From Marivita geojedonensis (GTDB taxonomy: Bacteria; Pseudomonadota; Alphaproteobacteria; Rhodobacterales; Rhodobacteraceae), in the NCBI RefSeq assembly GCF_002115805.1, contig NZ_JFKC01000001.1, positions 578,568 through 642,567 on the forward strand: a stretch of DNA of 64,000 bases, given 5' to 3'. Both the position numbers and the translations under genes were made by a program. Shown here piece after piece: positions 11,004-64,000 of the stretch. The notes beneath the pieces were generated by a model. That model ran no database searches, was not told the DNA's origin, and saw only the letters and a program-made list of their open reading frames with translations. Within the stretch, counting starts at the first letter, position 1. Every line of letters begins with the position of its first letter.

Positions 11004-11840
11004 CTATTCCGGATCCGGGAGAGGCGGCAGTTGCCGCAGATACAAAACAACAGCGTCCAGATCTGTTTCGGTCATCGAGGCATAATACCCATATCCCATG
11101 GGAGGCATCATGGGACTGCCATCCGGTCGCTTGCCCTGGGTGATCATCATCTTGATCTCGTCGTCCGTATACCCTGCGAGACCGTCCTCATGACTTGTCA
11201 GGTTTGCGGAAACCGAGGTTCCCCATGGCCCATGAAACGGAAACCCGCCAGCGCCAAGATGTGTATCCAGCATCGGGCCCATGGGACCCGGCGTCGAATG
11301 GCATTCCACGCAATGAGCAACCGGGCCTGCAAGATACTCCCCATATTCGACAGTCACAGCGGCAGGGATGGCGGCGACGCTCTCGATGGGCGGGCCATAG
11401 GCCGGTGGGAGGGGAATATTATAGGTCGAGAAAGGTGTTGTATTGTCACTTGCAGGGACGGTCCGGAGAAACATGACGATCGACATGAGATCATCGTCTG
11501 AGAGACCGCGATACAGTCCAATCGGCATCGGAGGTCCAATAACAGAGCCATTAGGTCGGATACCCTCCCGGATGGCGCGCGCAAGTTCTGCGTCAGTCCA
11601 TTCCGCAACACGGCTCCCCGGCGTAATGTTGACAGCCCAGGCCTCGAACGCCTCTGACTTCTCCACCATGAATCCGCCGAGCTCATTTGCCATATCGGGT
11701 CCGTTTGGACCCTGCGGTGTGTGACAATTGCCGCAGGCCGCTGGCCCGCGAACCAGGTATTCACCGCGCTCCAGGCTGGGCTCAGCCGAAACCGCGATGG
11801 GCAGCACCATGACCAGGGCTGCAAGTAGATCGTTTCGCAT
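11004..11840 (-). CDS. Periplasmic dihaem cytochrome c
   Basis: The 278-residue protein has a signal peptide (1-19, ending VSA-E) and two class I cytochrome domains. The first haem site CGNCH (36-40) is followed by TPQGPNGPDM, the second CVECH (177-181) by STPGPMGPM. Candidate axial Met residues lie in GPPMPIGLYRGL and PMMPPMGYGYYASM. The pattern, including DGSPMMPPM and SDDDLxxIVMFLRT, is that of the cytochrome subunits of PQQ or flavin alcohol/aldehyde dehydrogenases and related dihaem electron carriers. No dehydrogenase subunit is nearby, so it is probably a stand-alone electron carrier. It is unrelated in detail to the four small cytochromes. Confidence 0.87.
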   Translation of the reverse strand: MRNDLLAALVMVLPIAVSAEPSLERGEYLVRGPAACGNCHTPQGPNGPDMANELGGFMVEKSEAFEAWAVNITPGSRVAEWTDAELARAIREGIRPNGSVIGPPMPIGLYRGLSDDDLMSIVMFLRTVPASDNTTPFSTYNIPLPPAYGPPIESVAAIPAAVTVEYGEYLAGPVAHCVECHSTPGPMGPMLDTHLGAGGFPFHGPWGTSVSANLTSHEDGLAGYTDDEIKMMITQGKRPDGSPMMPPMGYGYYASMTETDLDAVVLYLRQLPPLPDPE

Positions 11841-16700: not shown

Positions 16701-17266
16701 AGTGGACTCCGGTTCTGACGACGACACAACTTTGCGGGTAGATAACATGATTAAACTGAGCTGCCAAAGATCAAGTGAAAAAATCTCGGATTTCAGGCGT
16801 CATCTCATGACCTCCGCAATAATATGTATAAATGAAAAGCCGTTTCGGTCAGCTTGGAAAGCAGTGGCAGCACGTCTACACATGGAAAGGACTTCGAGCC
16901 TTGTTGGACATACCTCCGCATCTCACAAAACTGGCAAGATACTCCTGATTTTCTCAGAGAATCAGTGATAATCGCGGCTTGTGTATGATCTTTTTGGACT
17001 TTTGCGGGCAGTCTTCTTTGTTTGACTGCGCTAGCGTCGCCGAAACCGTGATCCGTTGGAGTCTTTTTGTAACTGCAATAATTGGCTAGGCACGCATCGC
17101 AAAGAGATACAGGCCGCGTTGAATGACCAAAATTTGGTCGACGGGCAAGTTATCGCCCTGTGACTCTTATCAGTGTGACAATATGGATTGAGCGTTGGAG
17201 GCAAAACCAGTATCGTTTTAGTTGTAGATATTGGCAGACATTTCACGTGAACGGTGGGGGTTCATT
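16701..17266. other. AT-richer intergenic region before the EPS locus
   Basis: No gene is supported here. The stretch contains the promoters of the divergent 16182-16700 gene and of the exoY/wzc pair. No exact operator can be given. Confidence 0.45.
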
Positions 17267-46126: not shown

Positions 46127-47362
46127 TTACCGCCTGGCTGTCTCCAGGATACGTTCAAAAATCTTGCTGTAGCCGTCAGCCTGCCGCTCTAGCGAAAATT
46201 CACGTTCGGCCACTGTTCGACACTCCGCAGCCATTTCGCCCCTAAGGTCGGGCCTGTCCAGCAAGGTCTCGATGCACCGCGCGAAGCTTTCGCAATTATC
46301 CTGCAGAGCGAGCAACCCCGTCTGTCCTTCGCGGACCAGTTCAGCTACGCCGCCCACGTCGAATGCTACCATTGGAGTGCCGCAGGCCAGACTTTCCTGA
46401 AGGACAACCGGCAAATTGTCAGAGCGTGTCGGGAACAGGCAGATGTCAACGGCCGAGAAGATCTTCCGCTTTTCTAGCGGATCGGCGATATAGCCCAGAT
46501 ACCTGTGATCGACCGCGAGGTTAAGGTCGCTATCACTGTCGACCGTACCGACGATGGCAAGGAAGAGCTTCTTGCGAACATCCGGAGAAAGTCGCTTCAG
46601 CGCCTCCTGCAATAGGTCAAAACCCTTTCTCGGGTCGGAGATATTGTGCGCAAGACAAAGCGCGACCGGACGATCAAGCGGAAAACCAAGGTCTTGGCGT
46701 GCCTGAACGGGATCTTCGGGGCGATAGACCTGCGTATCGATCCCGTTGGGCACATGATGCACAGGTATCGGCGCAAGCAAGCTTTGCCGAGCAAGATCCG
46801 CTATCCAACTCGACACGCCGACAAACTCTACATTGGCCGCGTGAAACGCTCGACGCTTAAGCCGATGCGAGAGCGCAGACCCGTCGCGCTTCATTGCCTC
46901 ATAGCTTTTTGGATAAGGGCATCGCCCGCATCCGATCAACCAGCGGTCGCAGTCGAAGCTGTAAACACAGTGCCCCGTAAAGCTCCACATGTCGTGTAGC
47001 GTTATCACGGCGGGGCACTTTCGCGTCAACTTTGGCAATGCGAGATAGTTGATGTATCCACCGTGCAGGTTGTGAAAATTAACGATGTCCGCTCTTTGGA
47101 ACCAATCTTGACGAGCAATGGCGCGGGTATTCAAAATGCCGATATTGCCCAGTCCGGCCTCATAGGTCGCCCTGCTCGCGAGCTTTTGCCAAATATTTCC
47201 AACCCGCGGGATGAAGTGGCAGTTCGGACCGATATCTCTGTCATAGGATGTTGCAGCGAAATCGACACGGTGACCGTAGTCTTCAAGACCACGACCCAGG
47301 GCCTCCACCGCTATTCCAGCACCCCCTTTGCCAACAGTCCCGTTGACGAGAAGAACGTTCAT
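46127..47362 (-). CDS. Family 4 glycosyltransferase (WcaC-like)
   Basis: The ATG at 47362 overlaps the stop of the radical SAM fusion by 4 bases and gives 411 residues; a start 15 bases upstream is less likely. The N-terminus [26 protein letters not shown] is the GT4 loop. The Cys-rich stretch [13 protein letters not shown] and [13 protein letters not shown] marks a known subgroup with WcaC. The donor domain has [25 protein letters not shown] with an E-x7-E-like motif. Coupling to the fusion gene suggests they work on the same unit. Confidence 0.91.
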
Positions 47363-49632
47363 ACCAGGCTGCTCCAAACGCTTTCCGTGGCATCGAGCAT
47401 CCGGCCAGCGGTTACCTTTGCCAATGATATTGCCCGTTCGGGCCTGCCAATGTCATTTAGGAAACCGGCAATCTTTCCACCTTGCGTGTAGTCCACGGCC
47501 AGATAGGGCGCATTGGCCTGCTCGGCAAAGACGACCGAGTGATACCGCATGCAAATGTTGAGTTCCGCACCGCGCATCGCCGTCAGAATTTCATCGGGCG
47601 AAACCGGTAGGTTTTCGACCTGGATGTCTTCGTCCAACAACCCGTGCCCTGCGATCAGTTTGCGTTTCAGATGTCGGTTGAACACGCGGTCGTCGCCGCC
47701 GATCCAATGATGGCACATGGGCAGCAGGCGAAGGCGAAGTTCCCTCTCCTTTACAATGGTGGCCATGAAAGACAGAAGCTCCTCCTCGAACCGATCGTTC
47801 AACCCTGCGCGTTCATCATCGGTCATGCCCGGAAGATAATGAGCGCCCACCTTGCGCAGGAAGAAGCAGACTTCGCGCCGCTCATCGGACGCGGGCATAG
47901 AGACACCTTGGCGCAAATGCTGCTCGACATAGGCAATAGCTGGATCATCAATCTTCCGAGCGTCCACACCGAAGTCCGACCGCGACCGGTCTACGCTCGC
48001 TTGATCACGAAGTTCGACCGTGCTGGCCAGACGAAGCATTTGCCCCACAGCCCCGATAAATCGAGGCTCGCGGAGCGGACCGAGACCGCAACCCTCGACC
48101 CGAGCCACAGCTTTGCGCGAAGCAGCGCATGTGAAGGCGAAAAGCATGTGATCGAGCGCCTGCAAGTCCATCAAGGGGCCGCCCGCCACGACCACCTCAT
48201 CGACTGTATTGCAGATCTCCTCGAATCCCGCCGAGTAGGTTTCGATGATTTTGATATCGTCGAGATCAAGCACAACCCGCGTTTGGCGCGAGATAAATGG
48301 GTGTAAGCTCGCTAGGATGATGCGCTTTGGGGGATTTGCACGACGGCGCAGCCGGTCAAGGACACCCCAAAGGATTGCTTGGTCCCCGACAGTTTCGGTC
48401 CCGTACCATCCGACGATCAAGACACCGTTTGAACGCAACGTCTGAGGATCATCAAATTGGGCACATGGCGCTGTCCTGCGGGCGGATGCGGTAAGGCGTT
48501 CTATCGAATACCGACTAGCGTGTCGTTTAGATTGCAAATAGAAGCCGACCTTTTCCGTAAACTTGGGCTCGGCATGATAATCGTGGATGCAATCATCACA
48601 ATGATCTTTTTTTATTGCATCACGCTTATCGATATTCCCGAAGAACAGTTTACTTCCGGATTGTTCAAGCAGGTTGCCCAATGTAGGCGATTTTGGTGAG
48701 CAATAAAGCAAACCACGCTGCGCCGAAATAATCACACCGTCGTAATGATACTGACAACCGCTCATGCGCTTTTTGTTGTCTACCAACATGCCCTTAATAC
48801 TACTATAGGTTTTGCGCACAGCAGGGCGTGTTTCATATGATGCATTAAGGCGCATATAGAACAAGGCAAGGTTGTAGAGCTGAGCATCAGTGAAATTACG
48901 AATTTGGTCCCCATTATCATTATTGTACAGCCGGTCGATAAACTCGGCGATGCGGAAACTGGCAAGCAGGTCGTTTTCGATCACCCAATCAAGTAGTTCG
49001 TCAACGTGATCCGCATTTGTTTTCGTGATTGTGCAGCCAACTGAAAGTGCCACACCAGCCTCACGCAGTCGATCTATAACCTTTACGGCGCGTTCAAAAT
49101 TGCCGTTACGGCCTCTTACCCTGTCATGTACCACGCCAACCCCGTCGAGCGAGACCATCGCGGAAAAGTCCACACCGGCATCTCGGCAAACATCGCGCGA
49201 CGCAAGTATTCTTTCGACGACCCGGTCAGGTTGAAGCGCATTCGTGATTATCGAAGCATACCGAAGACTTGAGAGGTTCTCGATGCCGGCCTGAAAGATG
49301 CGGTCAAGATCCGGGCGCAGCGTCGGCTCACCGCCAGTTACGCCGAGTGAAAGCACTTTGTCGAAAAGTGGATCCTGAAAGATTCTTTTGAACTCCTCTA
49401 GCGTTGGCCCCTTCTCTCTATGTCCTTCCCAGATACCACACATCTCGCAACGAGCGTTGCACACGTCATTCGCCATCAAGCTGATGGAATTTGGCTTCGG
49501 CGGAAACAGTTCGCCGAAAAGGTCGCGGCGCGCCTGATGTTTGGCAAGACGACTCATGTCACGAATTGACCGCAAAATGTTGCGCATTTCATCGGGTACA
49601 AGAAGCTTCAATATTCTTCGAGTAGAATTCAA
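47359..49632 (-). CDS. Radical SAM - polysaccharide pyruvyl transferase fusion protein
   Basis: The 757-residue two-domain protein starts with a radical SAM domain (about 45-360). Its [4Fe-4S] motif CNARCEMC (Cys58, 62, 65) is followed by the SAM-binding TGGEPTL (99-105) and TNAL. Four later cysteines (293, 311, 345, 348) look like a SPASM/twitch auxiliary cluster. From about 402 (NGVLIVGWYGTETVGDQAILWGVL) to the end it is a CsaB/WcaK-type polysaccharide pyruvyl transferase, with VVVAGGPLMDLQ and the closing MRYHSVVFAEQANAPYLAVDY. The second half ketalises pyruvate onto sugars; the radical half could modify a sugar or a peptide. It heads the long minus-strand EPS operon, directly behind an IS. 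Its fused state is clear from one open frame. Confidence 0.88.
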   Translation of the reverse strand: MNSTRRILKLLVPDEMRNILRSIRDMSRLAKHQARRDLFGELFPPKPNSISLMANDVCNARCEMCGIWEGHREKGPTLEEFKRIFQDPLFDKVLSLGVTGGEPTLRPDLDRIFQAGIENLSSLRYASIITNALQPDRVVERILASRDVCRDAGVDFSAMVSLDGVGVVHDRVRGRNGNFERAVKVIDRLREAGVALSVGCTITKTNADHVDELLDWVIENDLLASFRIAEFIDRLYNNDNGDQIRNFTDAQLYNLALFYMRLNASYETRPAVRKTYSSIKGMLVDNKKRMSGCQYHYDGVIISAQRGLLYCSPKSPTLGNLLEQSGSKLFFGNIDKRDAIKKDHCDDCIHDYHAEPKFTEKVGFYLQSKRHASRYSIERLTASARRTAPCAQFDDPQTLRSNGVLIVGWYGTETVGDQAILWGVLDRLRRRANPPKRIILASLHPFISRQTRVVLDLDDIKIIETYSAGFEEICNTVDEVVVAGGPLMDLQALDHMLFAFTCAASRKAVARVEGCGLGPLREPRFIGAVGQMLRLASTVELRDQASVDRSRSDFGVDARKIDDPAIAYVEQHLRQGVSMPASDERREVCFFLRKVGAHYLPGMTDDERAGLNDRFEEELLSFMATIVKERELRLRLLPMCHHWIGGDDRVFNRHLKRKLIAGHGLLDEDIQVENLPVSPDEILTAMRGAELNICMRYHSVVFAEQANAPYLAVDYTQGGKIAGFLNDIGRPERAISLAKVTAGRMLDATESVWSSLV

Positions 49633-49656: not shown

Positions 49657-50487
49657 GGGTCAGGATTCATAACCAGAACATGACAACTGCGGCCAGAGCG
49701 CATGCTGACAGAAAGACCTTTGGGCACCTGTCATAGCGTGTCGCGACGCGCCGCCAGTCCTTGAGCCGAGCGAAGCTGTTCTCGATCTTGTGGCGCTTTC
49801 GGTACAGCGCCTCGTCATGGGGGATCGGAACCTTGCGGCTCTTTCTGGAAGGGATGCACGGCGTAATCCCCTTGTCTTCCAGGGCTTCTCGATACCAGTC
49901 CGCGTCGTATCCGCGGTCCGCCAGCATGTGTTCGGCGGGAGGAAGCCCGTCCAGCAGTGCCCGTGCGCCGATGTAATCACTCCGCTGGCCAGCCGTCAGA
50001 AACATCCGCAGCGGACGGCCAGCTGCGTCTGTAACCGCGTGCAGTTTCGAATTCATACCGCCCTTGGTGCGCCCGATCAGGCGACCGCGCCCCCCTTTTT
50101 CAGCCCCAGGCTTGAGGCTGTACGGTGCGTCTTCAGATGTGTCGCATCGATCATCAGCGTGTCAGTCTTACCGCCCTGATCGGCCAGTTCCAGAAGCATC
50201 CGGCGAAAATCCCTTTCTCGCTCCACCGCTTCCACCGGCTGTATAAGGTCTTGTGCGGGCCATAAACGGCAGGCGCATCGCGCCACCGTAAGCCATTGCG
50301 TTTGGGGAATATTATGCCGCTCAATACCCGCTTGTCATCCACACGAGGCTTGCCGTGAGACTTTGGAAAGAAGGGCTCAAGCTTCGACATCTGCGTGTCG
50401 CTCAGCCAATAAAGATCACTCATATCAGCGCTCCGTTTTTCGAAGCGTGAATCACGCGCAGGCGCTGTTATCAATGCATCCTGACCC
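49657..50487 (-). mobile_element. IS5-family (IS427 group-like) insertion sequence
   Basis: An 831-bp element has imperfect terminal inverted repeats, GGGTCAGGATTCAT at the left and ATGCATCCTGACCC at the right, and is flanked by TA on both sides, the usual target duplication of this group. It carries one transposase on the minus strand that is broken by frameshifts. It lies between the acyltransferase gene and the radical SAM fusion, so it separates the ABC-transporter end from the main EPS operon. Confidence 0.87.
49667..50423 (-). pseudogene. IS427-like transposase with two frame changes
   Basis: Three frames together cover a complete DDE transposase of about 250 residues. Frame one (50423-50154) is MSDLYWLSDTQMSKLEPFFP to RWSEKGIF. 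Frame two, from about 50210, has LADQGGKTDTLMIDATHLKTHRTASSLGLKKGG, with the first Asp of the triad. Frame three (to 49667) has the second Asp in HMLADRGYDADW and Glu in KRHKIENSFARLKDW. The breaks fall at a TTTT run near 50209 and at an A5G6 run near 50090. One shift could be programmed, as in related IS5 elements, but two suggest decay or homopolymer errors. Confidence 0.82.
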
Positions 50488-54890: not shown

Positions 54891-56834
54891 TCAGGTTTGA
54901 CCGCCTTTCGGGTCCGATCGGGCCGTCGCGCCTGTCTCGGTCTTTAAGCGTCCCGTCAGAAAACGTGCGAACTCAATTGGTTCACGCGCAAGCGCGAAAG
55001 CCATGGATGGCCCGTCGCCGCCGGTCGCCTCGGCAACGAAGGAAGCTTTGAGCGCGTCGGGGTCAGGGATCTCGTCAAGGGCCCTCTCGACCGCATCGAA
55101 GTCAAAAATCTCCGATAGTCGCGGGTCGTGACGCAGTCCGGACAATTCCTTCAGGTATTCGCTTTTCTGCTCGCTGAGGCGCATCAGACTGCAGGGAAAA
55201 GGCGCCAGCTTCTTGCGCCGGGTTCGTACGCTTTCCGGCAGAACATCCTGCATCGCTTCGCGGAAGATCGCCCGACCCATCCCGTCGCGCATGAAGAATG
55301 GCGTTGGCAAGCGAATAGCAAACTCGATCAGTTCCCGATCAAGCAAGGGAAATGCATACTGGATGCCGTGAGGCGCGCCTTGCAGAGCCCAGCTCTCCAG
55401 GCGATATGCAGTGAACGCTCTATGAAATAGAGCCAAACGGTTGCGCTTGGTATTCGCGCTCAAACGGATGTCGCCCCGCCACCGATTGCGAAAGGCCGGG
55501 CGCAAAAAAGACTTCAGCTTTTGATCCAGCGTAATGGCGGGCTCCTTGCCAGCGGCAAGACGCAGCAAATCTCGCAGGTTTGCGGGTAGAAAATAGGGCA
55601 GGACTTCGTTGGCAAAAATCCGCGCCTTCGAGGTGCCAAGCACCGCGGAACGCCCTTTGAGTTCCGCCCACAGCAACCGCCAGCGGCCTCTGACAAGGTA
55701 CTCGGCATAGGAGCCGCGACCGTTGTAGGTGACGATCTCGTCACCGCCCCACCCGGACAGGATCACGTCAACGGCATCTTGATGGGCGGCCCGCAGGACC
55801 TTCTCCTCTTGATGTTTGAATCCTTCCAGTCGGTCGGCCCAGGCATCGACGATGACATCGTCACAATCTGCCGGAGTAATCTTTGTATTGTAGAGATTGG
55901 GCTCGCTCTGCAATGTTGCATCGACGTAAGGTCGCTCATCGATGAATTGGAGGTCTGCTCTAAGTTCAGAAACGAACGAATACGTATGCAGGTTCCGCCT
56001 GTGCTGGCCCAGGATGCGGGCGGCGAGAACTGAAATGGCCGTGGAGTCCAGCCCGCCGCTCAGATGTGCACCGATTTGTCCCTGTTTCGGGAGGCGACGA
56101 CTCACAGCGGCGTCTAGAAGGTCTCGCAACTGTGTCGCGCAGTCCTCGAAATGCGACAGATCCTTGATCGGGTTTACGGCTCTCAATTTCCAGTAGCGAT
56201 GTTGGTCTGTCAGGCCTTTCGACGAGATACGAAGAACATGCGCGGCGGGCAGGCGTCTCAAACCGGGAATTAGCGTGCCCTCCGGATCCGACATGTCGAA
56301 TACGAAACTTTTTATGGCGGCCTCGACGTCCAAGTCTTCCGAGGCCAGTCCGCTGCGAACAATCATGTCAGGGTGCGAGGCCCAGGCGAAAAAATCGTGC
56401 GGTTTGTGAAAATAGAACAAGGGGCGTACGCCGGCATGGTCGCGCGCGAGCGTAAGTTGCTGTGTCTTGTCATCCCAGATTGCGTAGGCAAAATCTCCCT
56501 CCAGCTGATTTGGGGCATCATTCCCAAACTGACCATGTAATCGACAGAAGAGACGTTCGCGCTCTGAAGTGGAAAGATCGAGGGAACCAGCTATGCCCGG
56601 GGCGCGGTAGAGGCGCGCATCAGCCACACACAAAAATTGACCGTCGCATGTTGGGGGAAGGCCGGCGACATTCCGACCGATTGCGAGACGTCCCATGCCT
56701 ATTTGCCCGGCGCAATGATGTTTAATGGCCCGTCGGGTTTCGGGCGCGCATGCAAAGACATCTCCCATTCGAGTCAGATCAGCGGGCGCCACGTGGGTAC
56801 CGTCCAGCTTCCAGATCCCAAAAATCACGTCCAT
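54891..56834 (-). CDS. Asparagine-synthetase-like protein (lasso-peptide cyclase type)
   Basis: The 647-residue protein has an N-terminal glutaminase-like domain and a C-terminal PP-loop synthetase domain with HLSGGLDSTAISVL (SGGLDST at 259-265) and SGWGGDE. The usual Cys2 nucleophile is missing: the protein begins MDVIFGIW, so it cannot use glutamine. This loss is typical of the lasso cyclases (C proteins), which adenylate an Asp or Glu side chain and close the isopeptide ring. The neighbours B1, B2, kinase and ABC exporter agree. The alternative, an amidotransferase for EPS, is less likely because of the B2 and PqqD genes. It is the last gene of the cluster. Confidence 0.85.
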   Translation of the reverse strand: MDVIFGIWKLDGTHVAPADLTRMGDVFACAPETRRAIKHHCAGQIGMGRLAIGRNVAGLPPTCDGQFLCVADARLYRAPGIAGSLDLSTSERERLFCRLHGQFGNDAPNQLEGDFAYAIWDDKTQQLTLARDHAGVRPLFYFHKPHDFFAWASHPDMIVRSGLASEDLDVEAAIKSFVFDMSDPEGTLIPGLRRLPAAHVLRISSKGLTDQHRYWKLRAVNPIKDLSHFEDCATQLRDLLDAAVSRRLPKQGQIGAHLSGGLDSTAISVLAARILGQHRRNLHTYSFVSELRADLQFIDERPYVDATLQSEPNLYNTKITPADCDDVIVDAWADRLEGFKHQEEKVLRAAHQDAVDVILSGWGGDEIVTYNGRGSYAEYLVRGRWRLLWAELKGRSAVLGTSKARIFANEVLPYFLPANLRDLLRLAAGKEPAITLDQKLKSFLRPAFRNRWRGDIRLSANTKRNRLALFHRAFTAYRLESWALQGAPHGIQYAFPLLDRELIEFAIRLPTPFFMRDGMGRAIFREAMQDVLPESVRTRRKKLAPFPCSLMRLSEQKSEYLKELSGLRHDPRLSEIFDFDAVERALDEIPDPDALKASFVAEATGGDGPSMAFALAREPIEFARFLTGRLKTETGATARSDPKGGQT

Positions 56835-56842
56835 GAAAGTCT

Positions 56843-57994
56843 CTAAACGTACTCTGCAGCGATACTTGCAAAAGCAGTGTCTGCGATGGGACGGCCAGTC
56901 ATCATCTGGAGATGCAGACTACCCCATCCGGAATTCGTTTCCAACAGCAACGGCCCGTCATCGCCAAAGGCGACATCCCAACCCAAGAATACATAATGAG
57001 GCAAATTGGTATGACCTTTGCGAACGACCGCAAGAACGTATTGCCAGTCAGGGAGGATCTTGCCTTCAAGTCCGCGGCTCGCAGAGGTTTGCGTTGCCTC
57101 ATGGATTTCACAGATGCGCCCGGAGCTTGTTTCAATCAAGGCCATGTCGCCGCCCTGCGTGACTTCACTACCTGGTCGTGGCCAGACCACTGCTGCAGCA
57201 ATGATTTCCACGGAGCCATCGTGTCTTCTACCCGTCACGATCCTGGCACAAAGCGGTGTTTCGCCGACGTAGGGAATGTGTTCCTTGTTCGCTTTGACAA
57301 CAGTTTGGACGAGTGTCTTTCCATGGGTGCGTGAGTGTCCTGCGATATGTGCCTCCATCTGAGATCGCTGGAGAACCCGGTCCCTGCGCCGGTATGTGCC
57401 GTCGACCCAGATCCAACGCTCCGCACCGATGCCAGACTTGGTTCGAGCTGGTTTGAGCCATAGGTCGCGCCGCGGAACCGACCCTCCTTCTTCCTGTTGG
57501 CCGCTGTTCCAAACTGCAAGGAGCGACGGCGCCCGCAAGCCGAGCCTAGTACAAAACGTGTCAAAAAGCTGCTTGTCTGAAACCGGGCAGGGACCAGGGC
57601 ACCACCCGGCCGCACGGTTGAGGACCATTAAGGATGAGGTGTTTTCGGTCCAGTAGAGGTAATCATCCAAACGCGCGCGCCGTTCTGGTAGCCAAAGCTT
57701 GTACAGAAAATATTCCAGCGGTGGTATATTGTAGTGCACGGCAAGCAGCCACGCATCGAGAATGCGCGAGGGTGCGGCCTTTTGTTCAAGGCCGCACCTT
57801 ATCGCTGTGGTGAGAGATCCGATTGGCCATAGCAAGGCCATCGCAGACTTCGCGGCCAGTCGTTTCCATGCGGGATGTCCGGAGAACATGTCGTGGCGTC
57901 CGATGACCCGCAAACGATGCATGACTGGGCTACCACGAGCTTCATTGGCCGGATGAAATGGGAACCCCAATTGGCTAAGCCGAACCAGCCTCAT
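56843..57994 (-). CDS. ATP-grasp protein (sugar-transfer-associated type)
   Basis: The ATG at 57994 overlaps the stop of the B2 gene by 4 bases and gives 383 residues; the open frame upstream to 58198 is a shadow over B2. The protein has an ATP-grasp fold of the sugar-transfer-associated type. Marks are DLWLKPARTKSGIGAERW in the N-terminal grasp part, TLVQTVVKANKEH and, near the end, VFLGWDVAFGDDGPLLLETNSGWGSLHLQ with the metal-binding Glu and Asn. ATP-grasp enzymes join a carboxylate to an amine or thiol. It is not a standard lasso gene, so it may add a tailoring step. It lies between B2 and the cyclase. Confidence 0.8.
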   Translation of the reverse strand: MRLVRLSQLGFPFHPANEARGSPVMHRLRVIGRHDMFSGHPAWKRLAAKSAMALLWPIGSLTTAIRCGLEQKAAPSRILDAWLLAVHYNIPPLEYFLYKLWLPERRARLDDYLYWTENTSSLMVLNRAAGWCPGPCPVSDKQLFDTFCTRLGLRAPSLLAVWNSGQQEEGGSVPRRDLWLKPARTKSGIGAERWIWVDGTYRRRDRVLQRSQMEAHIAGHSRTHGKTLVQTVVKANKEHIPYVGETPLCARIVTGRRHDGSVEIIAAAVVWPRPGSEVTQGGDMALIETSSGRICEIHEATQTSASRGLEGKILPDWQYVLAVVRKGHTNLPHYVFLGWDVAFGDDGPLLLETNSGWGSLHLQMMTGRPIADTAFASIAAEYV

Positions 57995-58449
57995 GCGAAC
58001 TTTGCGAGCGGTAGATATTCGGAGACATCCGGACCGCCAATGATCACTCTTTCTCCCGCGCGCAGCCAAGCATGCGCGTTGAAACCATCCGGATCCGAAG
58101 TCCGCTTTTCGGCATCCCGGTGAACTCCGAAATAGGCCGTCGTAGGTATGCCGCGCCGTTTCAACAACAGCCGGGTCGCCAAGGTCTGCTCTATGCAAAC
58201 TGCCTTGAAGGGAACCACCATCGATGCCCGTTGCACCGCCGATGAAACACGCATCGCGACACCAATCTGCGCGATGGGCAAAAAAAGTGAAGTTTCCCGC
58301 ATCGGAAGGCCCAAGACCCGGGTATGCAAGCGCATCGGAAACAGCGTAAGAAATCGCCCAAGCAAAAGCGCTGCCGCTGCTTCGATCAGTAACGCCTTAC
58401 GATGCCTTGGTGTGCGTAGAAACCGCCTGGTTGCGGTCATCATTGTCAA
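57991..58449 (-). CDS. Lasso-peptide biosynthesis B2 protein (transglutaminase-like leader protease)
   Basis: The 152-residue protein has the B2 core FKAVCIEQTLATRLLLKRRGIPTTAYFGV and then FNAHAWLRAGERVIIGG. Cys85 and His126 are the catalytic pair of the transglutaminase-like peptidase, and the last member is probably Asp in GGPD. B2 removes the leader from the precursor, using the PqqD-like B1 to find it. An N-terminal hydrophobic stretch (about 20-40) is typical. It follows pqqD by 76 bp and is coupled to the ATP-grasp gene by 4 bases. Confidence 0.9.
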   Translation of the reverse strand: MTMMTATRRFLRTPRHRKALLIEAAAALLLGRFLTLFPMRLHTRVLGLPMRETSLFLPIAQIGVAMRVSSAVQRASMVVPFKAVCIEQTLATRLLLKRRGIPTTAYFGVHRDAEKRTSDPDGFNAHAWLRAGERVIIGGPDVSEYLPLAKFA

Positions 58450-58525
58450 TCACGCCCGGATTCTTGCAAATGACTAGAAACCTGCGTTTTCCAGATCATC
58501 GCGCGAGTTGAATTGCTGTAAATCA

Positions 58526-58837
58526 TCACTCACCACTCCCGGAAAGTGTTTCATTGGTACCCACGCGAATGATTAGACCGTGGTCCAACAAGTCATTCAG
58601 AAAAGACATGGTCTGCACTTCACAAATTCCGCGATCCACATCGTATTCTGCCAAAAGAAGGTCAATGATGCCGGAAACCGAAGTGGACCCTTCAATTGAA
58701 CGCCAAATTGCTTGACCTGTTTCCTCGACGGAGAAGTAATGACCGCTCTCCACGCGCATCATCAGTGTCTCAGGGCCAATATCGGCTTCCAACTGGTGCT
58801 CGCGTTTCTCGATGATATCGTGCAAGCTTAATTTCAT
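58526..58837 (-). CDS. PqqD-like RiPP recognition protein (lasso B1)
   Basis: The 103-residue product starts at an ATG seven bases after GGAAA. The PqqD fold is seen in PETLMMRVESGHYFSVEETGQAIWRSIEG, then a three-helix part with SVSGIIDLLLAEYDVDRGICEVQTMSFLNDLLDHGLI. PqqD-like proteins are RiPP recognition elements: they bind the leader peptide and present it to the protease and cyclase. The separate B1 and B2 genes fit the split-B lasso architecture. It lies 27 bp after one precursor candidate (58865-59098). Confidence 0.88.
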   Translation of the reverse strand: MKLSLHDIIEKREHQLEADIGPETLMMRVESGHYFSVEETGQAIWRSIEGSTSVSGIIDLLLAEYDVDRGICEVQTMSFLNDLLDHGLIIRVGTNETLSGSGE

Positions 58838-58864
58838 TGCTTGTTTCCAGTGAGGCGCGTCGCC

Positions 58865-59098
58865 CTAGCTACGTCGTTCCCGAACGTATTCCGTGTCAGG
58901 GAAAAAATTGCCCGATCCAGTATGTCCCAGCACAAATAGATTGTGGCATCTGCAGTCCGGTCCCACACCAAGGCAAGCGGTATATGCTCGGCTAGAAACC
59001 GGTTCAGCCTTCACGAGGCTGTTCCATGCGAAGTATTCTTGTCGGTGCTCACATGTGTTTTTGTCACCGCTGCGTTGACTCGACTCGCGTTCAAACAC
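58865..59098 (-). CDS. Candidate RiPP precursor with lasso-like C-terminus
   Basis: An open frame of up to 77 residues from a GTG at 59098, or 48 from a GTG at 59011-region codon MKAEPVSS, ends 27 bp before pqqD. Its last residues GSGNFFPDTEYVRERRS look like a lasso core: Gly1, a Pro-Asp at 7-8 that would close an eight-residue ring (compare the GxxxxxPD/E cores of benenodin and caulosegnin), a bulky tail and a terminal Ser fit for the HPr-type kinase. Against it, the upstream part lacks a clear leader motif (the Thr is at -1, not -2) and codon use includes rare Arg codons. It overlaps the other candidate in a different frame; at most one is likely real. Confidence 0.4.
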   Translation of the reverse strand: MFERESSQRSGDKNTCEHRQEYFAWNSLVKAEPVSSRAYTACLGVGPDCRCHNLFVLGHTGSGNFFPDTEYVRERRS

Positions 59099-59151
59099 GG
59101 CCTTGACCAGGCTTTTTTGACAACCGACTCAGTTGAGCAATTATTAACCAC
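59011..59151 (-). CDS. Candidate RiPP precursor with lasso-type leader
   Basis: A short frame behind AAGGAG (nine bases before a GTG at 59151; an ATG at 59178 is in frame) encodes 46 residues. The leader has KKAWSRPCLNASRVNAAVTK, which fits the lasso leader rule Y/W-x2-P-x-L-x9-T: Trp, Pro, Leu and Thr are spaced as expected, the Thr at -2. The predicted core is THVSTDKNTSHGTAS. It has an Asp at position 6 and ends in Ser, which suits the kinase, but a ring closed at 6 would be smaller than known lassos. It lies between the kinase and pqqD genes, where the precursor is expected. Confidence 0.55.
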   Translation of the reverse strand: MVNNCSTESVVKKAWSRPCLNASRVNAAVTKTHVSTDKNTSHGTAS

Positions 59152-59289
59152 AACGACGCACTCCTTCAAAGCAACCATCCACCGGGAACCTACACGTTGA
59201 AATAGCCTTTGGCGTGATTTAGGTCAACATGTACAGGATCAGGCTGGCTGTTTCGACGCAACCCAACATGTAGAGTGGCGGGCCAGCCT

Positions 59290-60249
59290 TCAAAGCTGGT
59301 TGGATGATAACCAGTGTTCCTGCAACAGTGCGATGGTCGTGTTAATCTGATCAAAGTCATATGCTCGCTCTAGGCGATACACCTTGGCCTGTCGTAGGAT
59401 CGACACCGCAGCCTCGAAGTAAAGCGCCTCATCCCCAAGTTCTTGCACGAGAAATGGCCTGTAGGCTTGACTTCGGACCACCGCCGCGGCTTCAGAACTA
59501 GGAAGAGCAACAATTCTCGGCATTGCAGGCCCGGGTACACGTGTCAGTTCGACGACTTCCAGTATCGAGGCACTCGCTTTCGTATTGAGCCCCGATTCCA
59601 CGTAGTACTTGTCGAGTCCTCGCAGAACTGGCTGCGTCACGCCATTCGTGATCTCAAGCATTTTGATCGATTGCTGCCAGAGTTTCAGCTTGCGGCCATC
59701 TGAGTGCGCAATCGCCCCATCTGTTGTCAACTCGACGGCGCAAATATCATCACACAAGACCTTGAACCCATGCCGCTGGAGTGCGGCAGCCATAGTGGAT
59801 TTGCCAGCCCCGGACTCTCCACAAAACAGGACCGCTCTTCCCCCGATGTCTACGGCGCTTGCGTGCAAGGTAACGACCTTGCGCATGTGGAGGACAATCC
59901 CAAGCACAGATCCGATCAGGTAGGCTGCAACGTCGTCATGGGCCTCGGATTGCGGCCACACAGAAACCGTCCCGTCCGCTGAAATCTCGAACACGGCCAC
60001 ATCGGGAACTACAAAATGAAAGGTTGTTTCATCGCAGGCCCAGTTCAACCCCGTCATCTTGGGCGTGCGCGGGTATGACGGTTTCCGGCTGGCATGCACA
60101 AAACTCAGCTGAGGATGTTCCAAGCCGGTAATCTCCTCCACAAGTCCCGGCAATTCGAATTCGCTTTCGATAACCAGGCCCGCACTTCTGTAACGTTTTG
60201 CTTTCAAATCGGCGTCCCGAACCCGTTGGAGGCGCGACACCCCATCCAC
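59290..60249 (-). CDS. HPr-kinase-like protein (lasso-peptide kinase type)
   Basis: The 319-residue protein has a C-terminal HPr kinase/phosphorylase-like fold with P-loop GESGAGKST (144-152), preceded by TLHASAVDIGG and followed by FKVLCDDICAVEL with acidic metal ligands. The N-terminal half (about 20-110) is a separate domain of unknown role. In paeninodin and pseudomycoidin-type lasso clusters such kinases phosphorylate the C-terminal Ser of the precursor. Both candidate precursors here end in Ser. Start is the GTG at 60249; an upstream TAG limits extension. Confidence 0.85.
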   Translation of the reverse strand: MDGVSRLQRVRDADLKAKRYRSAGLVIESEFELPGLVEEITGLEHPQLSFVHASRKPSYPRTPKMTGLNWACDETTFHFVVPDVAVFEISADGTVSVWPQSEAHDDVAAYLIGSVLGIVLHMRKVVTLHASAVDIGGRAVLFCGESGAGKSTMAAALQRHGFKVLCDDICAVELTTDGAIAHSDGRKLKLWQQSIKMLEITNGVTQPVLRGLDKYYVESGLNTKASASILEVVELTRVPGPAMPRIVALPSSEAAAVVRSQAYRPFLVQELGDEALYFEAAVSILRQAKVYRLERAYDFDQINTTIALLQEHWLSSNQL

Positions 60250-60480
60250 CGGCAGGCGCTAGGGTGGTCGCCTTGCAGGCTCAAGCGAACCCAGCCACCG
60301 CGCGCATCTCGCTGCAACATCGGGTGCATTCGAAAAAAATGGATCTGTGATGTTGGACGAACCATGCCTGCTCCTTTCTTCGCCAATATGTCAGTTAACA
60401 CGCGAACGGGACAAGCGTTCTGGCTCTCGGTCGCACGATCCGGCGCGACGCTGTTCTGCCGAGCCGGGCACCGCGATTGT

Positions 60481-61698
60481 TCAGCGGCCTTTGGCCGGTG
60501 CAGTCCGCAAGCGTCCCAGCATACGTGCAGCACGAACAAACAGGTAACCAAACTCCAGCCCATGTGGAAGGTCAACCATGGCCAGTTCCGGCGGGCTTGG
60601 TGCCAGGAGCGCACGCAGTTGCGTGGTCAACCGTTTCGGCTGGTCTGACATCGAAATCTCCATGTGACGCAGCAGTCCTTTGGCGATTTCGAGGGGGTGT
60701 CCCGGGGGAGGAGGATCGTCAACTCGGCTCGCTGTTTCCAGCATCCAGGTGAGAGACTGCGCCGCCAATTCCTTGCATTTTGGACAGTCTCCAAGCAATT
60801 GCCTGAGCGGACCGGGAAGTGGGGTGTCATCGATTTGCGTGATCATCATGATTGCGGCGCCAACGACGCGCGACATCCCGATTTCGTGAGCGCGATTTAC
60901 CAGACCATGCCAGTCGTTCCGGACAAGGCGTCCATTTCGAAGGGTCCAGCGAATATCATTCAGCCATTTCAATCGCATCCAGCCATGGGCCAATCCGTGC
61001 GCGCAAAGGTAAATGAAGTGATCGAGTCCGTCGGGAACAAGGATTTCGCCTATTCCATCAATGACCGTGGAATGGCCCCAGGCATGTTGAGGGGCAGTGG
61101 GCATCATGCCTTCGACCTTTTGCCAGCGCCAATGCATCTCGACGCCGATGCCTTTTGATGGCGCAAAAAAAAGCAGCTGATTTGTCACCCGCATCAAGCG
61201 TTCTGTCTGGCGCTCAGAGCCCAGAAGCTTCCTGAACTCCGAGCTGTATCCCATGGTTTCTAAAACCGAGGCAGCCTCGCTGGCTTGGCTCGGAGGTATC
61301 AGGAGATCGATGTCCCCCGGATCACGTAAGGCCACATCTTCATGAATCACCATGGACAGGGGCGCGCTTTTCATCACCGAAGCCGTGATCCCGGCGTCCC
61401 GAAATGCCTGTGCTAGCAGGCCTGTCTCGCGTGCCAGAGCCAGGGCGCGCAAGGCGCGTTCACGGGAGATCTCGATGAGCTTGACGCGCGCAGCATCAGG
61501 CACCTGAGCGTCCGGTAGCCATTCAAGATTGCGCCGCAGAAGCAGAACTGATTTGTGTCGTGCTGCAAGGTCGATGATCCGGTGCCAGTCGACGGGCGGG
61601 TCAGGCGCGCGCGGATCCGGTCCAGTGAGTTGGACCAGCGCCCACCATGCATTTCTGGCCTGATCCGTTTCTTGTGTCGGGGTGGGGTCTTTGATCAT
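60481..61698 (-). CDS. Nucleotidyltransferase-family protein (NTP_transf_5 type)
   Basis: The 405-residue protein has the conserved block VMKSAPLSMVIHEDVALRDPGDIDLLI. Asp129 and Asp131 form the D-x-D metal site of the polymerase-beta-like fold. The family member in the pseudomycoidin cluster decorates the phosphorylated C-terminal Ser with sugars. A related role here, after the HPr-kinase-like enzyme, is likely by context. It lies between the exporter (76 bp) and the kinase gene (231 bp). The substrate is unknown. Confidence 0.83.
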   Translation of the reverse strand: MIKDPTPTQETDQARNAWWALVQLTGPDPRAPDPPVDWHRIIDLAARHKSVLLLRRNLEWLPDAQVPDAARVKLIEISRERALRALALARETGLLAQAFRDAGITASVMKSAPLSMVIHEDVALRDPGDIDLLIPPSQASEAASVLETMGYSSEFRKLLGSERQTERLMRVTNQLLFFAPSKGIGVEMHWRWQKVEGMMPTAPQHAWGHSTVIDGIGEILVPDGLDHFIYLCAHGLAHGWMRLKWLNDIRWTLRNGRLVRNDWHGLVNRAHEIGMSRVVGAAIMMITQIDDTPLPGPLRQLLGDCPKCKELAAQSLTWMLETASRVDDPPPPGHPLEIAKGLLRHMEISMSDQPKRLTTQLRALLAPSPPELAMVDLPHGLEFGYLFVRAARMLGRLRTAPAKGR

Positions 61699-61774
61699 CG
61701 GCTCATGGAATTAAAAAATCTCGCCGGCAAAAATGGCCGCTTGGGTCGTTTCTGTAAGATAGGTCATACAATCC

Positions 61775-63529
61775 CTATTTCGCGCCCCCCTGCTCCACCT
61801 CGATCCTGCCACCATCCAGTCTCAAGATGCGATCAGCAAGCTCCAGACTGGCGGGCCTGTGCGTGATCAGGACAACAGTACGTCCCGCCAGGGCTCTGCG
61901 CGCTGTTTCCACGAAGCTTGCTTCGCCTTCCGGATCAAACATCGCGGTCGGTTCGTCAAGGATGAGTATCGCAGGTTTCTTGAGCAGAGCCCGCGCGAGG
62001 ACGACGCGTTGCCGCTGACCTCCGGACAGGCGGATACCTGCTTCACCGATGATCGTATCGAGGCCTTCAGGTAACTCTGAAATGAACGGCCAGGCCTCCG
62101 CCTCACGCGCGGCTTGTTCTACCTGATCGCGCGCTGCGGAGGGTAGTCCGAACAGGATGTTTTCGGCGATCGTTCCATCGATCAACGCCACCCGCTGTGG
62201 TACAAGCGCGATGGCCTGACGATATCCGGAAAGCTCCAGAGACGAGATTTCCTGACCATCAAGGTAGATCTTCCCTGCGTCCGGAGTTCTGAACCGCATC
62301 AGGAGATCGACCAGCGTACTTTTGCCTGCACCATTCTTTCCAATGATGGCCACGGTTTCGCCCGCTGAAATATCGAAACTGACGCCGCTTAGGAGCTGGG
62401 GGCGGCCTGCATGGCGAAAGCTCACATTTTCGAAACGCAGTGCCCCATTTATCGGGGATGGCAGCGGGGCTCCTCCGCTGACCTCGGGGGTCATGCCGAG
62501 CACGATATTCATGTGACGAAGTGCACCACGTGCCTGCTGGAACTGCCCCCACAAATCGGCAAAACTCGCAACGGGACGTGTCAAAAGGCCCGCGTAGAGC
62601 AGGAAACTGACCAGTTCGGCGGGCCCCATTTGGCCTTGGGATACCTTGCTACCTGCCAACCAGATGATGAGCACGACAGCGGCGGACGCCGTGAACTTAA
62701 TGGCTGGTCCCAGTAGGCTCTGATATGCGGCCATGCGCTCCTGCAGAGCGCGGTAGTGTGAGACGCGCGTCGTGATGCGATGCTTTTCGAGTTCCTCACG
62801 CGTGTAGGCCTTGACGGCCTGCAACACAGAAAGGTTTTCGTCTGCAAGGGAAATCCAGGCTGCATACGCATGGCGAAGCTCACCGGCCAATGGGCGAATG
62901 TGCCGACCAAACAGCTTCATGAACAGGTAGAAGCCTGGTACGCCAAGAATGACCGGTACAGTAAGAATGGGGTCGATCTTCAGCATCAGGGCGAAAGAAC
63001 CTGCGAGAACGATCGATTGTGGCAGGATCCCAAGAACGGATCCCGTCACGAATTCGCCCAAGACATCCACTTCGCGCGACACCAGAGACAAGAGGTCTCC
63101 TCGTCTCTGGTCCTCAAGCCACGACAAGGGCAGGCGCTGTAGATGATCGTAAACCTTGATGCGCAGCTGCGCTGTTAATCGCTCAATCGTACGTTGCAAA
63201 ACGCGTCTTTGAAGGACCTGTAGTCCAGACTGAATGAAGAGAAGAGCGATCAGGCCGCTGGCCAGCAGGCCGATCGAAAACTCGGTCTGCGCGAACAGCC
63301 CGCCAACGATGGATCCGCCCAACCAGGGAACAAACAGAACAGCGCCGCTCTCGAGCACCATCAGCAACAAACAAAGCGCCAGATGCCAGCGGAACGGCCA
63401 AAGGTTTTGCTGCAGGAAGGCCGTGTTCACGATATCATTCGCCTGCTCATACTTCTCCAACCCTGTTCGGAAATAATGCGTTGCCAAAGTTCTGCCGACA
63501 AGCTTCGGTCCGCGATTGATGCAACCCAC
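61775..63529 (-). CDS. ABC exporter, fused permease-ATPase (lasso D type)
   Basis: The 584-residue protein has six membrane helices (about 50-330), Walker A GKNGAGKST, signature LSGGQRQRVVLARALL, Walker B ILILDEPTAMFD and the switch His in LITHRP. It has no C39 peptidase domain, as in lasso exporters (D proteins), where leader removal is done by B2. It would export the mature peptide and give immunity. The first ATG at 63529 is followed by a 40-residue polar stretch; a start nearer the first helix is possible. It is the first gene of the cluster. Confidence 0.87.
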   Translation of the reverse strand: MGCINRGPKLVGRTLATHYFRTGLEKYEQANDIVNTAFLQQNLWPFRWHLALCLLLMVLESGAVLFVPWLGGSIVGGLFAQTEFSIGLLASGLIALLFIQSGLQVLQRRVLQRTIERLTAQLRIKVYDHLQRLPLSWLEDQRRGDLLSLVSREVDVLGEFVTGSVLGILPQSIVLAGSFALMLKIDPILTVPVILGVPGFYLFMKLFGRHIRPLAGELRHAYAAWISLADENLSVLQAVKAYTREELEKHRITTRVSHYRALQERMAAYQSLLGPAIKFTASAAVVLIIWLAGSKVSQGQMGPAELVSFLLYAGLLTRPVASFADLWGQFQQARGALRHMNIVLGMTPEVSGGAPLPSPINGALRFENVSFRHAGRPQLLSGVSFDISAGETVAIIGKNGAGKSTLVDLLMRFRTPDAGKIYLDGQEISSLELSGYRQAIALVPQRVALIDGTIAENILFGLPSAARDQVEQAAREAEAWPFISELPEGLDTIIGEAGIRLSGGQRQRVVLARALLKKPAILILDEPTAMFDPEGEASFVETARRALAGRTVVLITHRPASLELADRILRLDGGRIEVEQGGAK

Positions 63530-63830
63530 ACACCAAGCTGGCCTTGAATCACGGCGATGGAGGTGCTGATGGACGAACCCAAATAACTAAATGCGGAGAT
63601 TTTCGATGACGATCAGATTGAAGCCCGTGAAGCGTTGTGCCGCAAGCGCAGAAATATTTTGGTTGTCTTCCAGACGTCTCATGATGGGTATGCTTCAGTA
63701 TGGGTCAGCGCAGGTTTCTTGCGCTACGACAACAACACCCATGCGGTGTCCGCACGGCTGGACTACAGCGTAGCTGAACAATAGTCATTTGTAGCTTGCT
63801 GTGACGATCGGAATAGCCATCGGATCATTA
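63530..63830. other. Promoter region of the RiPP cluster and possible coding remnant
   Basis: About 300 bp upstream of the exporter. A plus-strand frame ending in TAG near 63783 reads SVWVSAGFLRYDNNTHAVSA and then RLDYSVAEQ. It looks like the last strands of a beta-barrel protein, but has no start, so it is at best a gene remnant. Confidence 0.35.
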
Positions 63831-64000
63831 GGGTTAGGATTCATAACCAGTAGATCACGACAGCAGCGAGTGCGATGGCTGAGAGGAAGACCTTGGGACA
63901 GCGGTCATAGCGTGTCACCACGCGTCGCCAATCCTTGAGCCTGCCAAACATAATCTCGATGCGGTTGCGCCGTTTATATCGGCGCTTGTCGTATTTGATC
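63831..64000 (-). mobile_element. IS5-family (IS427-like) element, cut by window edge
   Basis: The end GGGTTAGGATTCATAACCAG, preceded by TA, matches the left end of the IS at 49657 with one difference in the first 14 bases. The element continues beyond the window. It has the same orientation as the copy at 49.7 kb. Confidence 0.8.
63841..64000 (-). CDS. IS427-like transposase, C-terminal end
   Basis: The frame reads IKYDKRRYKRRNRIEIMFGR and then LKDWRRVVTRYDRC to the end VVIYWL. The Glu of RIEIMFGRLKDW is the last residue of the DDE triad. It is clearly related to but not identical with the copy at 49667 (KIENSFARLKDWRRVATRYDRC). The N-terminal part is outside the window; the visible part is intact. 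Confidence 0.82.
   Translation of the reverse strand, partial: IKYDKRRYKRRNRIEIMFGRLKDWRRVVTRYDRCPKVFLSAIALAAVVIYWL

Follow-up and report, generated by a model that had tools for sequence, protein, structure and literature searches.

What product might be expected from a gene cluster in which the enzymes of lasso-peptide biosynthesis stand beside a kinase, a nucleotidyltransferase and an ATP-grasp protein? This question is raised by a stretch of 64,000 nucleotides from Marivita geojedonensis (contig NZ_JFKC01000001.1, positions 578,568–642,567), hereafter called the window. An earlier note on this DNA had placed a lasso-type cluster for a ribosomally synthesized and post-translationally modified peptide (RiPP) at 54891–63529, with seven proteins encoded on one strand, and had listed no precursor. 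All seven were confirmed on the minus strand, with Pfam and NCBIfam matches to the families named, and an eighth gene was found, an open reading frame (ORF) of 46 amino acids at 59011–59151 (minus strand) that we regard as the precursor. According to our analysis, the locus is likely to be a lasso cluster of the kinase and nucleotidyltransferase type with its own precursor and an added ATP-grasp ligase; its predicted product is a lasso of about 17 residues, the C-terminal Ser of which would likely be phosphorylated and then probably ligated. The parts of this reading that can be taken from the sequence are the eight genes, the conserved precursor, the retained motifs and the co-occurrence of the ATP-grasp gene with one clade of cyclases.

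In the pathway that we propose, the leader would be held by B1 through a W-x-x-P-x-L motif, and the kinase would add a phosphate to the C-terminal Ser while the precursor is still linear. Cleavage by B2 would follow, about 15 residues past the start of the motif, and the cyclase would then close the ring between Thr1 and Asp8. The nucleotidyltransferase may decorate the phosphate (with hexose in the case of pseudomycoidin), the ATP-grasp enzyme may form an amide, either at the carboxylate of the C-terminus or on the group that has been attached, and the ABC exporter would secrete the product.

Precursor peptide and related loci

In the direction of transcription, the genes are ordered as ABC exporter, nucleotidyltransferase, kinase, B1, B2, ATP-grasp ligase and cyclase, with a gap of 452 bases between the kinase and B1 genes. 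The precursor ORF lies in this gap. Its likely start is a GTG codon at 59151, with GAAGGAG 9 nt upstream; the leader occupies 59065–59151 and the predicted core, TKTHVSTDKNTSHGTAS, 59014–59064. All eight reading frames of the cluster are open.

When the genome_contigs collection (84,980 species) was scanned with an alignment of the kinase, 67 loci were returned, the last few of them very weak, whereas a scan of the same collection with the single kinase protein found no relative. Aliiruegeria lutimaris (L021) carries all seven genes in the order of the window, and A. sabulilitoris (L022) has six of them, from the nucleotidyltransferase to the cyclase, in the same order on a contig of 6.9 kb; the identity to the window is 53–60% for the cyclase and 56–57% for the ATP-grasp protein. 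In all three loci the gap between the kinase and B1 genes contains a single small ORF that carries W-x-x-P-x-L and terminates in Ser: SVVKKAWSRPCLNASRVNAAVTKTHVSTDKNTSHGTAS in the window, AAKKAWKTPVLNVSKATPAASKTNTNEGGNSKHNASLS in A. lutimaris (11288–11443) and PQKKPWTTPALRIAEMRAAQGKSADTREKNKNFGAAS in A. sabulilitoris (2435–2587). Such an ORF arose in 2, 1 and 0 of 3000 dinucleotide-preserving shuffles of the three gaps, the value for the window being 2; since the pattern was chosen after the family had been seen, these values guard against chance ORFs and not against the choice of pattern. A 77-aa ORF at 58865–59098 was also considered as the precursor and was rejected, having no Pfam match at E 0.1 and no W/Y-x-x-P-x-L motif.

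The Ser end recurs among the relatives. When intergenic W/Y-x-x-P-x-[LIVM] ORFs were collected with their last residue unfiltered, Ser was terminal in 46 of the 55 candidates near the cluster genes (within 1.2 kb) and in 2 of the 12 farther away. This count began with 125 stretches, reduced to those with the kinase plus B1 or a cyclase, and omitted L014 (without good reason), L140, identical tails and stretches of 4000 bases or less, and hence the window's own small copies; the 46 Ser-ended precursors derive from 42 loci. Other precursor scans were filtered on a last residue of Ser, Thr or Cys. The earlier note's view of the locus as a lasso-type RiPP cluster with the C-terminal Ser (59014–59016) as the likely modification site is thus supported by a precursor that is both present and conserved. 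The two refuting conditions named in that note also turned out in favour of this view: there is a precursor ORF, and the cyclase lies outside the EPS/AsnB clade as sampled (see below).

The spacing of acidic residues points in the same direction. We examined 49 tails, namely the 46 Ser-ended ones together with those of the window, L141 and L044, which were added by hand. Asp or Glu occurs at index 22–25 from the leader Trp or Tyr in 40 of them (mean 16.7 and maximum 29 in 2000 within-peptide shuffles), and positions 16–21 are nearly free of these residues (0–2 of 49 at each position), as one would expect if the acidic residue served as a lasso ring acceptor. Among the remaining nine tails, seven have Asp at index 26, one has it at 27 and L026 has neither; Asp at index 26 fits the –17 spacing of classical leaders. 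In the window the acidic residue stands at index 23 (59041–59043), so that, with the core starting at a Thr of index 16, the predicted acceptor is Asp8; the same spacing from Trp gives Glu7 in A. lutimaris and Glu8 in A. sabulilitoris. An acceptor at core positions 7–9 is therefore present in the window precursor, dependent on a cut site that we place by relatives with equally short spacing and a Thr two residues before the proposed site (for example, L047, L052 and L071). The combined pattern of a W/Y-x-x-P leader, an acceptor 21–24 residues on and a Ser end also provides a simple core finder for kinase-type clusters.

Across ten close precursors, which were partly picked by a Ser, Thr or Cys end, only the Trp, the Pro and one Lys (core residue 2) are invariant. 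In one kinase-type locus, L041 (8232–9042), several differing candidate precursors occur (8232, 8738 and 8950), which hints that one enzyme set may serve several cores.

Leader-handling and ring-closing enzymes

B1, a PqqD-like leader-recognition protein (58526–58837, minus strand), matches PF05402 with 64.7 bits, and its best match in the Protein Data Bank (PDB) is a lasso PqqD chaperone (9x90_B, E 2.4e-15). The transglutaminase-like leader peptidase B2 (57991–58443, minus strand, with 58443 as the corrected likely start) exceeds the cut-off of the lasso model NF033537 (81.5 vs 33 bits) and matches PF13471 with 71 bits. The cyclase (54891–56834, minus strand), which is Asn-synthetase-like, has the lasso cyclase model NF033535 as its best match (250 bits) and matches PF00733 with 130 bits. 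Its N-terminus, MDVIFG, agrees with the earlier observation that Cys2 is absent.

In a tree of 89 cyclase sequences, made by a quick method and containing seven long branches, six references of the AsnB, exopolysaccharide (EPS) and NAGGN types came together in a single clade (support 99) that did not include the window cyclase. The latter grouped with the two Aliiruegeria cyclases (100) inside a clade of 17 rows (98). Its position outside the sampled AsnB/EPS clade led us to reject the reading of this protein as an EPS amidotransferase.

The same evidence bears on a broader alternative, in which the locus would encode an EPS-associated amidotransferase or protein-modification system of the HPr-rel-A kind, with no secreted lasso peptide and with the ATP-grasp gene as an EPS gene adjacent by chance. 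EPS-type genes do adjoin the cluster both here and near that of A. lutimaris, PF14397 (the family of the ATP-grasp protein) bears the name "Sugar-transfer associated," the best NCBIfam match of the kinase is TIGR04352 (below cut-off), and two ATP-grasp relatives are situated away from lasso genes. However, the conserved precursor has a lasso leader, an acceptor and a Ser tail, the cyclase lacks Cys2 and stands outside the AsnB/EPS clade, and the ATP-grasp gene tracks the cyclase clade; we consider this alternative very improbable.

Kinase and nucleotidyltransferase

The HPr-kinase-like protein (59290–60249, minus strand; exact start uncertain) matches the HprK C-terminal domain PF07475 with E 1.3e-7 and 31.8 bits, against a Pfam cut-off of 33.3, and TIGR04352 with 48.9 bits, also under the cut-off. 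In the kinase alignment His126, Gly141 and Lys147, Ser148 and Asp164 are invariant and Asp165 is nearly so, which corresponds to the His, P-loop and Asp-Asp motifs; their spacing is the same as that listed for lasso kinases in the excerpted text of PMC10368454. The nucleotidyltransferase (60481–61698, minus strand), of the pseudomycoidin PsmN kind, matches PF14907 (NTP_transf_5) with 151 bits and has a D-x-D in ...PGDIDLLIP; a comparison with the PDB gave no match at E 0.1.

According to excerpts of PMC8498205 and PMC9266682, the C-terminal Ser is the residue that known lasso kinases phosphorylate, with the precursor in its linear form, and in pseudomycoidin the nucleotidyltransferase PsmN is required for the addition of one or two hexoses to that phosphate. 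The marks of the pseudomycoidin kind (HPr-kinase motifs, a precursor with C-terminal Ser and an NTP_transf_5 protein) are all found in the window, and by analogy we suggest that the window peptide would be phosphorylated and decorated at its C-terminal Ser. In those excerpts, by the descriptions of which the comparison was made, the pseudomycoidin cluster (psm) belongs to a Firmicute, Bacillus pseudomycoides, and no ATP-grasp protein is mentioned. The same sources describe a proteobacterial case, SyanA/SyanK of Sphingobium yanoikuyae, in which the Ser that ends a lasso precursor is the target of an HPr-kinase homolog; here too the comparison is by description only, and the excerpts mention no ATP-grasp protein. 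Other clusters also resemble that of the window. A Paenibacillus plasmid locus matches its nucleotidyltransferase, cyclase, kinase, B1, B2 and exporter, and the kinase gave a tblastn hit (2e-22) on a Priestia plasmid (pB2.3, L169), to a gene annotated as "aldolase" that is flanked by B1 on one side and by a gene annotated as "paeninodin family lasso peptide" on the other. This paeninodin-family locus shares with the window a cyclase, a precursor, a kinase homolog, PqqD, B2 and an ABC protein, but it differs in gene order, and no nucleotidyltransferase or ATP-grasp protein is annotated in its 10.9 kb.

An alternative target of the kinase is core residue 3 (Thr3), with the C-terminal Ser conserved for another reason. 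The excerpted text of PMC10368454 reports that BsfK, from the bsf cluster of Bradymonas sediminis, modifies Ser3, and residue 3 is Ser or Thr in 8 of the 10 close precursors (by eye). The bsf cluster has A, B1, B2, C, D, K and N, as the window does, and a non-Thr penultimate leader residue. It differs from the window in that its seven genes, as given in that text, include no ATP-grasp gene, its leader is YxxPxL, and BsfA, the Ser3 substrate, ends in Asp and not in Ser. In our set, C-terminal Ser is found in 10 of 10 close precursors (partly selected by their end) and in 46 of 55 in the unfiltered set, and residue 3 is Val in L044 and Ala in L143, two close relatives. A Thr3 target therefore appears unlikely to us.

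ATP-grasp ligase

The ATP-grasp protein (56843–57994, minus strand), whose corrected start at 57994 overlaps the end of B2, matches PF14397 with 63.4 bits against a cut-off of 31.4. Lys181, Glu352, Asn354 and Asp340 are invariant in an alignment of its relatives. Its structure model (pLDDT 88.9) has a helical N-terminal part, and when the model was compared with known structures, the top rows were the amide-forming LysX/ArgX, RimK and D-Ala-D-Ala ligase. RimK adds amino acids to peptide C-termini. The window protein shares the ATP-grasp fold with RimK, LysX/ArgX and other ATP-grasp amide ligases (including, by function class, the graspetide ligases), but it differs from them in its lasso cluster setting and its helical N-terminal part, and a search of PDB sequences with its profile gave no hit at E 0.01.

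This gene is linked to the lasso system by its distribution. We compared 63 relative loci, which were stretches of at least 6 kb with a kinase and a cyclase; all their cyclases were in the tree, and the window and L140 were excluded. ATP-grasp genes were found in 9 of the 12 loci of the window's cyclase clade and in 1 of the 51 others, a comparison that treats the loci without regard to their relatedness. Loci without the gene were checked with a custom hidden Markov model built from the positives, not with Pfam, and L142, which has several clusters with cyclases both inside and outside the clade, was tallied as inside. In addition, the nucleotidyltransferase and ATP-grasp domains are joined in one 698-aa ORF in the relative G020 (L015, 10284–12380), and in G920 the kinase, ATP-grasp, B2 and B1 genes are contiguous. 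The extra ATP-grasp step proposed in the earlier note thus stands in one part, as co-occurrence supports membership of the ATP-grasp gene in the lasso system; the chemistry of the step did not gain such support. Judged by the joint ORF and the top structural rows, the enzyme most likely serves in C-terminal ligation, probably amide ligation at the phosphorylated C-terminus. More specifically, this lasso clade could have recruited a dedicated amide ligase that couples an amino acid or an amine with the phospho(hexosyl)-Ser end, so that the lasso would bear an additional ATP-driven carboxyl chemistry, or, in the boldest form of the idea, that acts on Lys2 and yields a natural lasso-graspetide hybrid; we hold this tentatively, at somewhat less than an even chance.

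The specific version in which the enzyme couples the side chain of core Lys2 with a carboxylate, so that a second ring or a ring conjugate results and the product is a natural lasso-graspetide hybrid, is improbable. It draws on the invariance of Lys2 in the ten close precursors, one of three such columns, and on the amide ligases among the top structural rows. Lys2 occurs in 10 of 13 clade precursors and is missing in L146, L147 and L154 (the last from G378, in which the clade cyclase lies on a separate contig). Yet L141 and L142a, in which no ATP-grasp gene of their own was seen, have Lys2, and the residue is missing from two loci that do carry the gene, L146 and L154. This mismatch argues against Lys2 as the sole target of the ATP-grasp enzyme, and we rejected it as such.

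Several observations weigh against the proposed pathway as a whole. The cleavage site is a predicted one, and in place of the usual leader marks, Tyr(–17)-x-x-Pro-x-Leu and Thr(–2), the window has its W-x-x-P-x-L at –15 (–17 in the YxxPxL leaders of the excerpted PMC10368454) and Ala as the penultimate leader residue; the same text gives Thr(–2) as not required, with Ile(–2) proven in bsf and Ala(–2) predicted elsewhere. If the spacing were canonical, the three closest precursors would have their acceptors at positions 6, 5 and 6, short of the range 7–9, and the clade precursor L147 (G020) has no Asp or Glu at 7–9. The matches of the cyclase to NF033535 (exception-model cut-off 525) and of B1 to the lasso PqqD model NF033536 (70.5 bits, cut-off 80) are below cut-off, and in the tree the AsnB references lie nested, within a 24-row set (96), among lasso-type cyclases other than that of the window, so that lasso cyclases are not shown to be one clade. 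The nucleotidyltransferase of A. sabulilitoris, though a PF14907 protein, is distant from that of the window (50 bits, vs 551 in A. lutimaris). As for the ATP-grasp protein, carbamoyl-phosphate synthetase and carboxylases, which are not amide ligases, were also matched structurally, within 2–3 Z units. In four of sixteen distinct clade loci (L141, L142a, L035 and L044) no ATP-grasp gene of their own was seen, G020 and G378 carry it on a different contig from the clade cyclase, and the ATP-grasp relatives in G852 and G116 show no lasso genes in the stretch examined. Another ATP-grasp relative, G1021, is once more the contig of A. lutimaris.

Lasso peptides with a kinase and a nucleotidyltransferase are known; within the limited literature that we searched, the partnering of an ATP-grasp protein with one clade of lasso cyclases appears to be the new element. 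It was not found there, which does not establish its absence in print, and no literature was found on "sugar-transfer associated ATP-grasp" or on Aliiruegeria with lasso peptides. Few clusters for phosphorylated or glycosylated lasso peptides have been characterised, and lasso tailoring enzymes are wanted for peptide engineering. The recurrence of the ATP-grasp gene in one cyclase clade, once within a nucleotidyltransferase ORF, points to a tailoring step unrecorded in the literature searched.

Some members of the cyclase clade have other neighbouring genes. In L035 (2290–5046), where no ATP-grasp gene was seen, an AMP-binding and phosphopantetheine carrier protein lies beside the lasso precursor and cyclase. 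A 2OG-Fe(II) oxygenase gene is found beside the cyclase gene in L141 (10750–11379, PF13640), and a similar one, recognised by eye, in L142 (5867–6514). The L142 contig (883–19900) holds several adjacent lasso-type clusters, in which kinases, sulfotransferases and cyclases number three each.

Exporter and genomic surroundings

The ABC exporter (D; 61775–63430, minus strand) matches PF00664 with 146 bits and PF00005 with 123 bits, and its ortholog in A. lutimaris scores 904 bits. The start at 63430 was picked by eye against the A. lutimaris protein; the mechanical ORF reaches 63529. Immediately upstream, at 63530–64000, lies a transposase fragment (by eye), and the end of the window is the end of the contig (642567 bases; a second record of the kinase is on a contig of 643218 bases). 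The native promoter region may therefore have been displaced, and the break in the assembly falls at a likely repeat. An insertion sequence directly upstream of the exporter would also suit a decaying locus, and this strain may then fail to express the cluster. In contrast, the eight reading frames have stayed open and the ATP-grasp and kinase motifs are retained, and decay seems to us an improbable explanation.

A large polysaccharide locus adjoins the cluster at about 17–54 kb of the window, in agreement with the earlier note. Its genes, at 17000–54000, encode chain-length and export proteins and many glycosyltransferases, and it also has sugar-nucleotide genes and a pair of ABC-2 exporter genes. 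The exporter pair and a MarR-like regulator gene adjoining the cluster were assigned by Pfam and the remainder by eye from ORF lists. Near the cluster of A. lutimaris, too, there is a MarR-like gene of a similar kind, along with a glycosyltransferase and a sulfotransferase. The earlier suggestion that the peptide is linked to the surface glycan came from this neighbourhood, and we have set it aside: no EPS operon was recognised by eye in the ORF lists around L036, L141 and L143 (with a family scan limited to two L141 neighbours), and its absence from view at the other ATP-grasp loci, L036 and L143, leaves the link unsupported.

Two further features were noticed by eye among the EPS genes. A second transposase gene, apparently split and IS5-like, lies at 49667–50474, and the ORF at 47359–49632 looks like a radical-SAM protein fused to a polysaccharide pyruvyl-transferase-like region.

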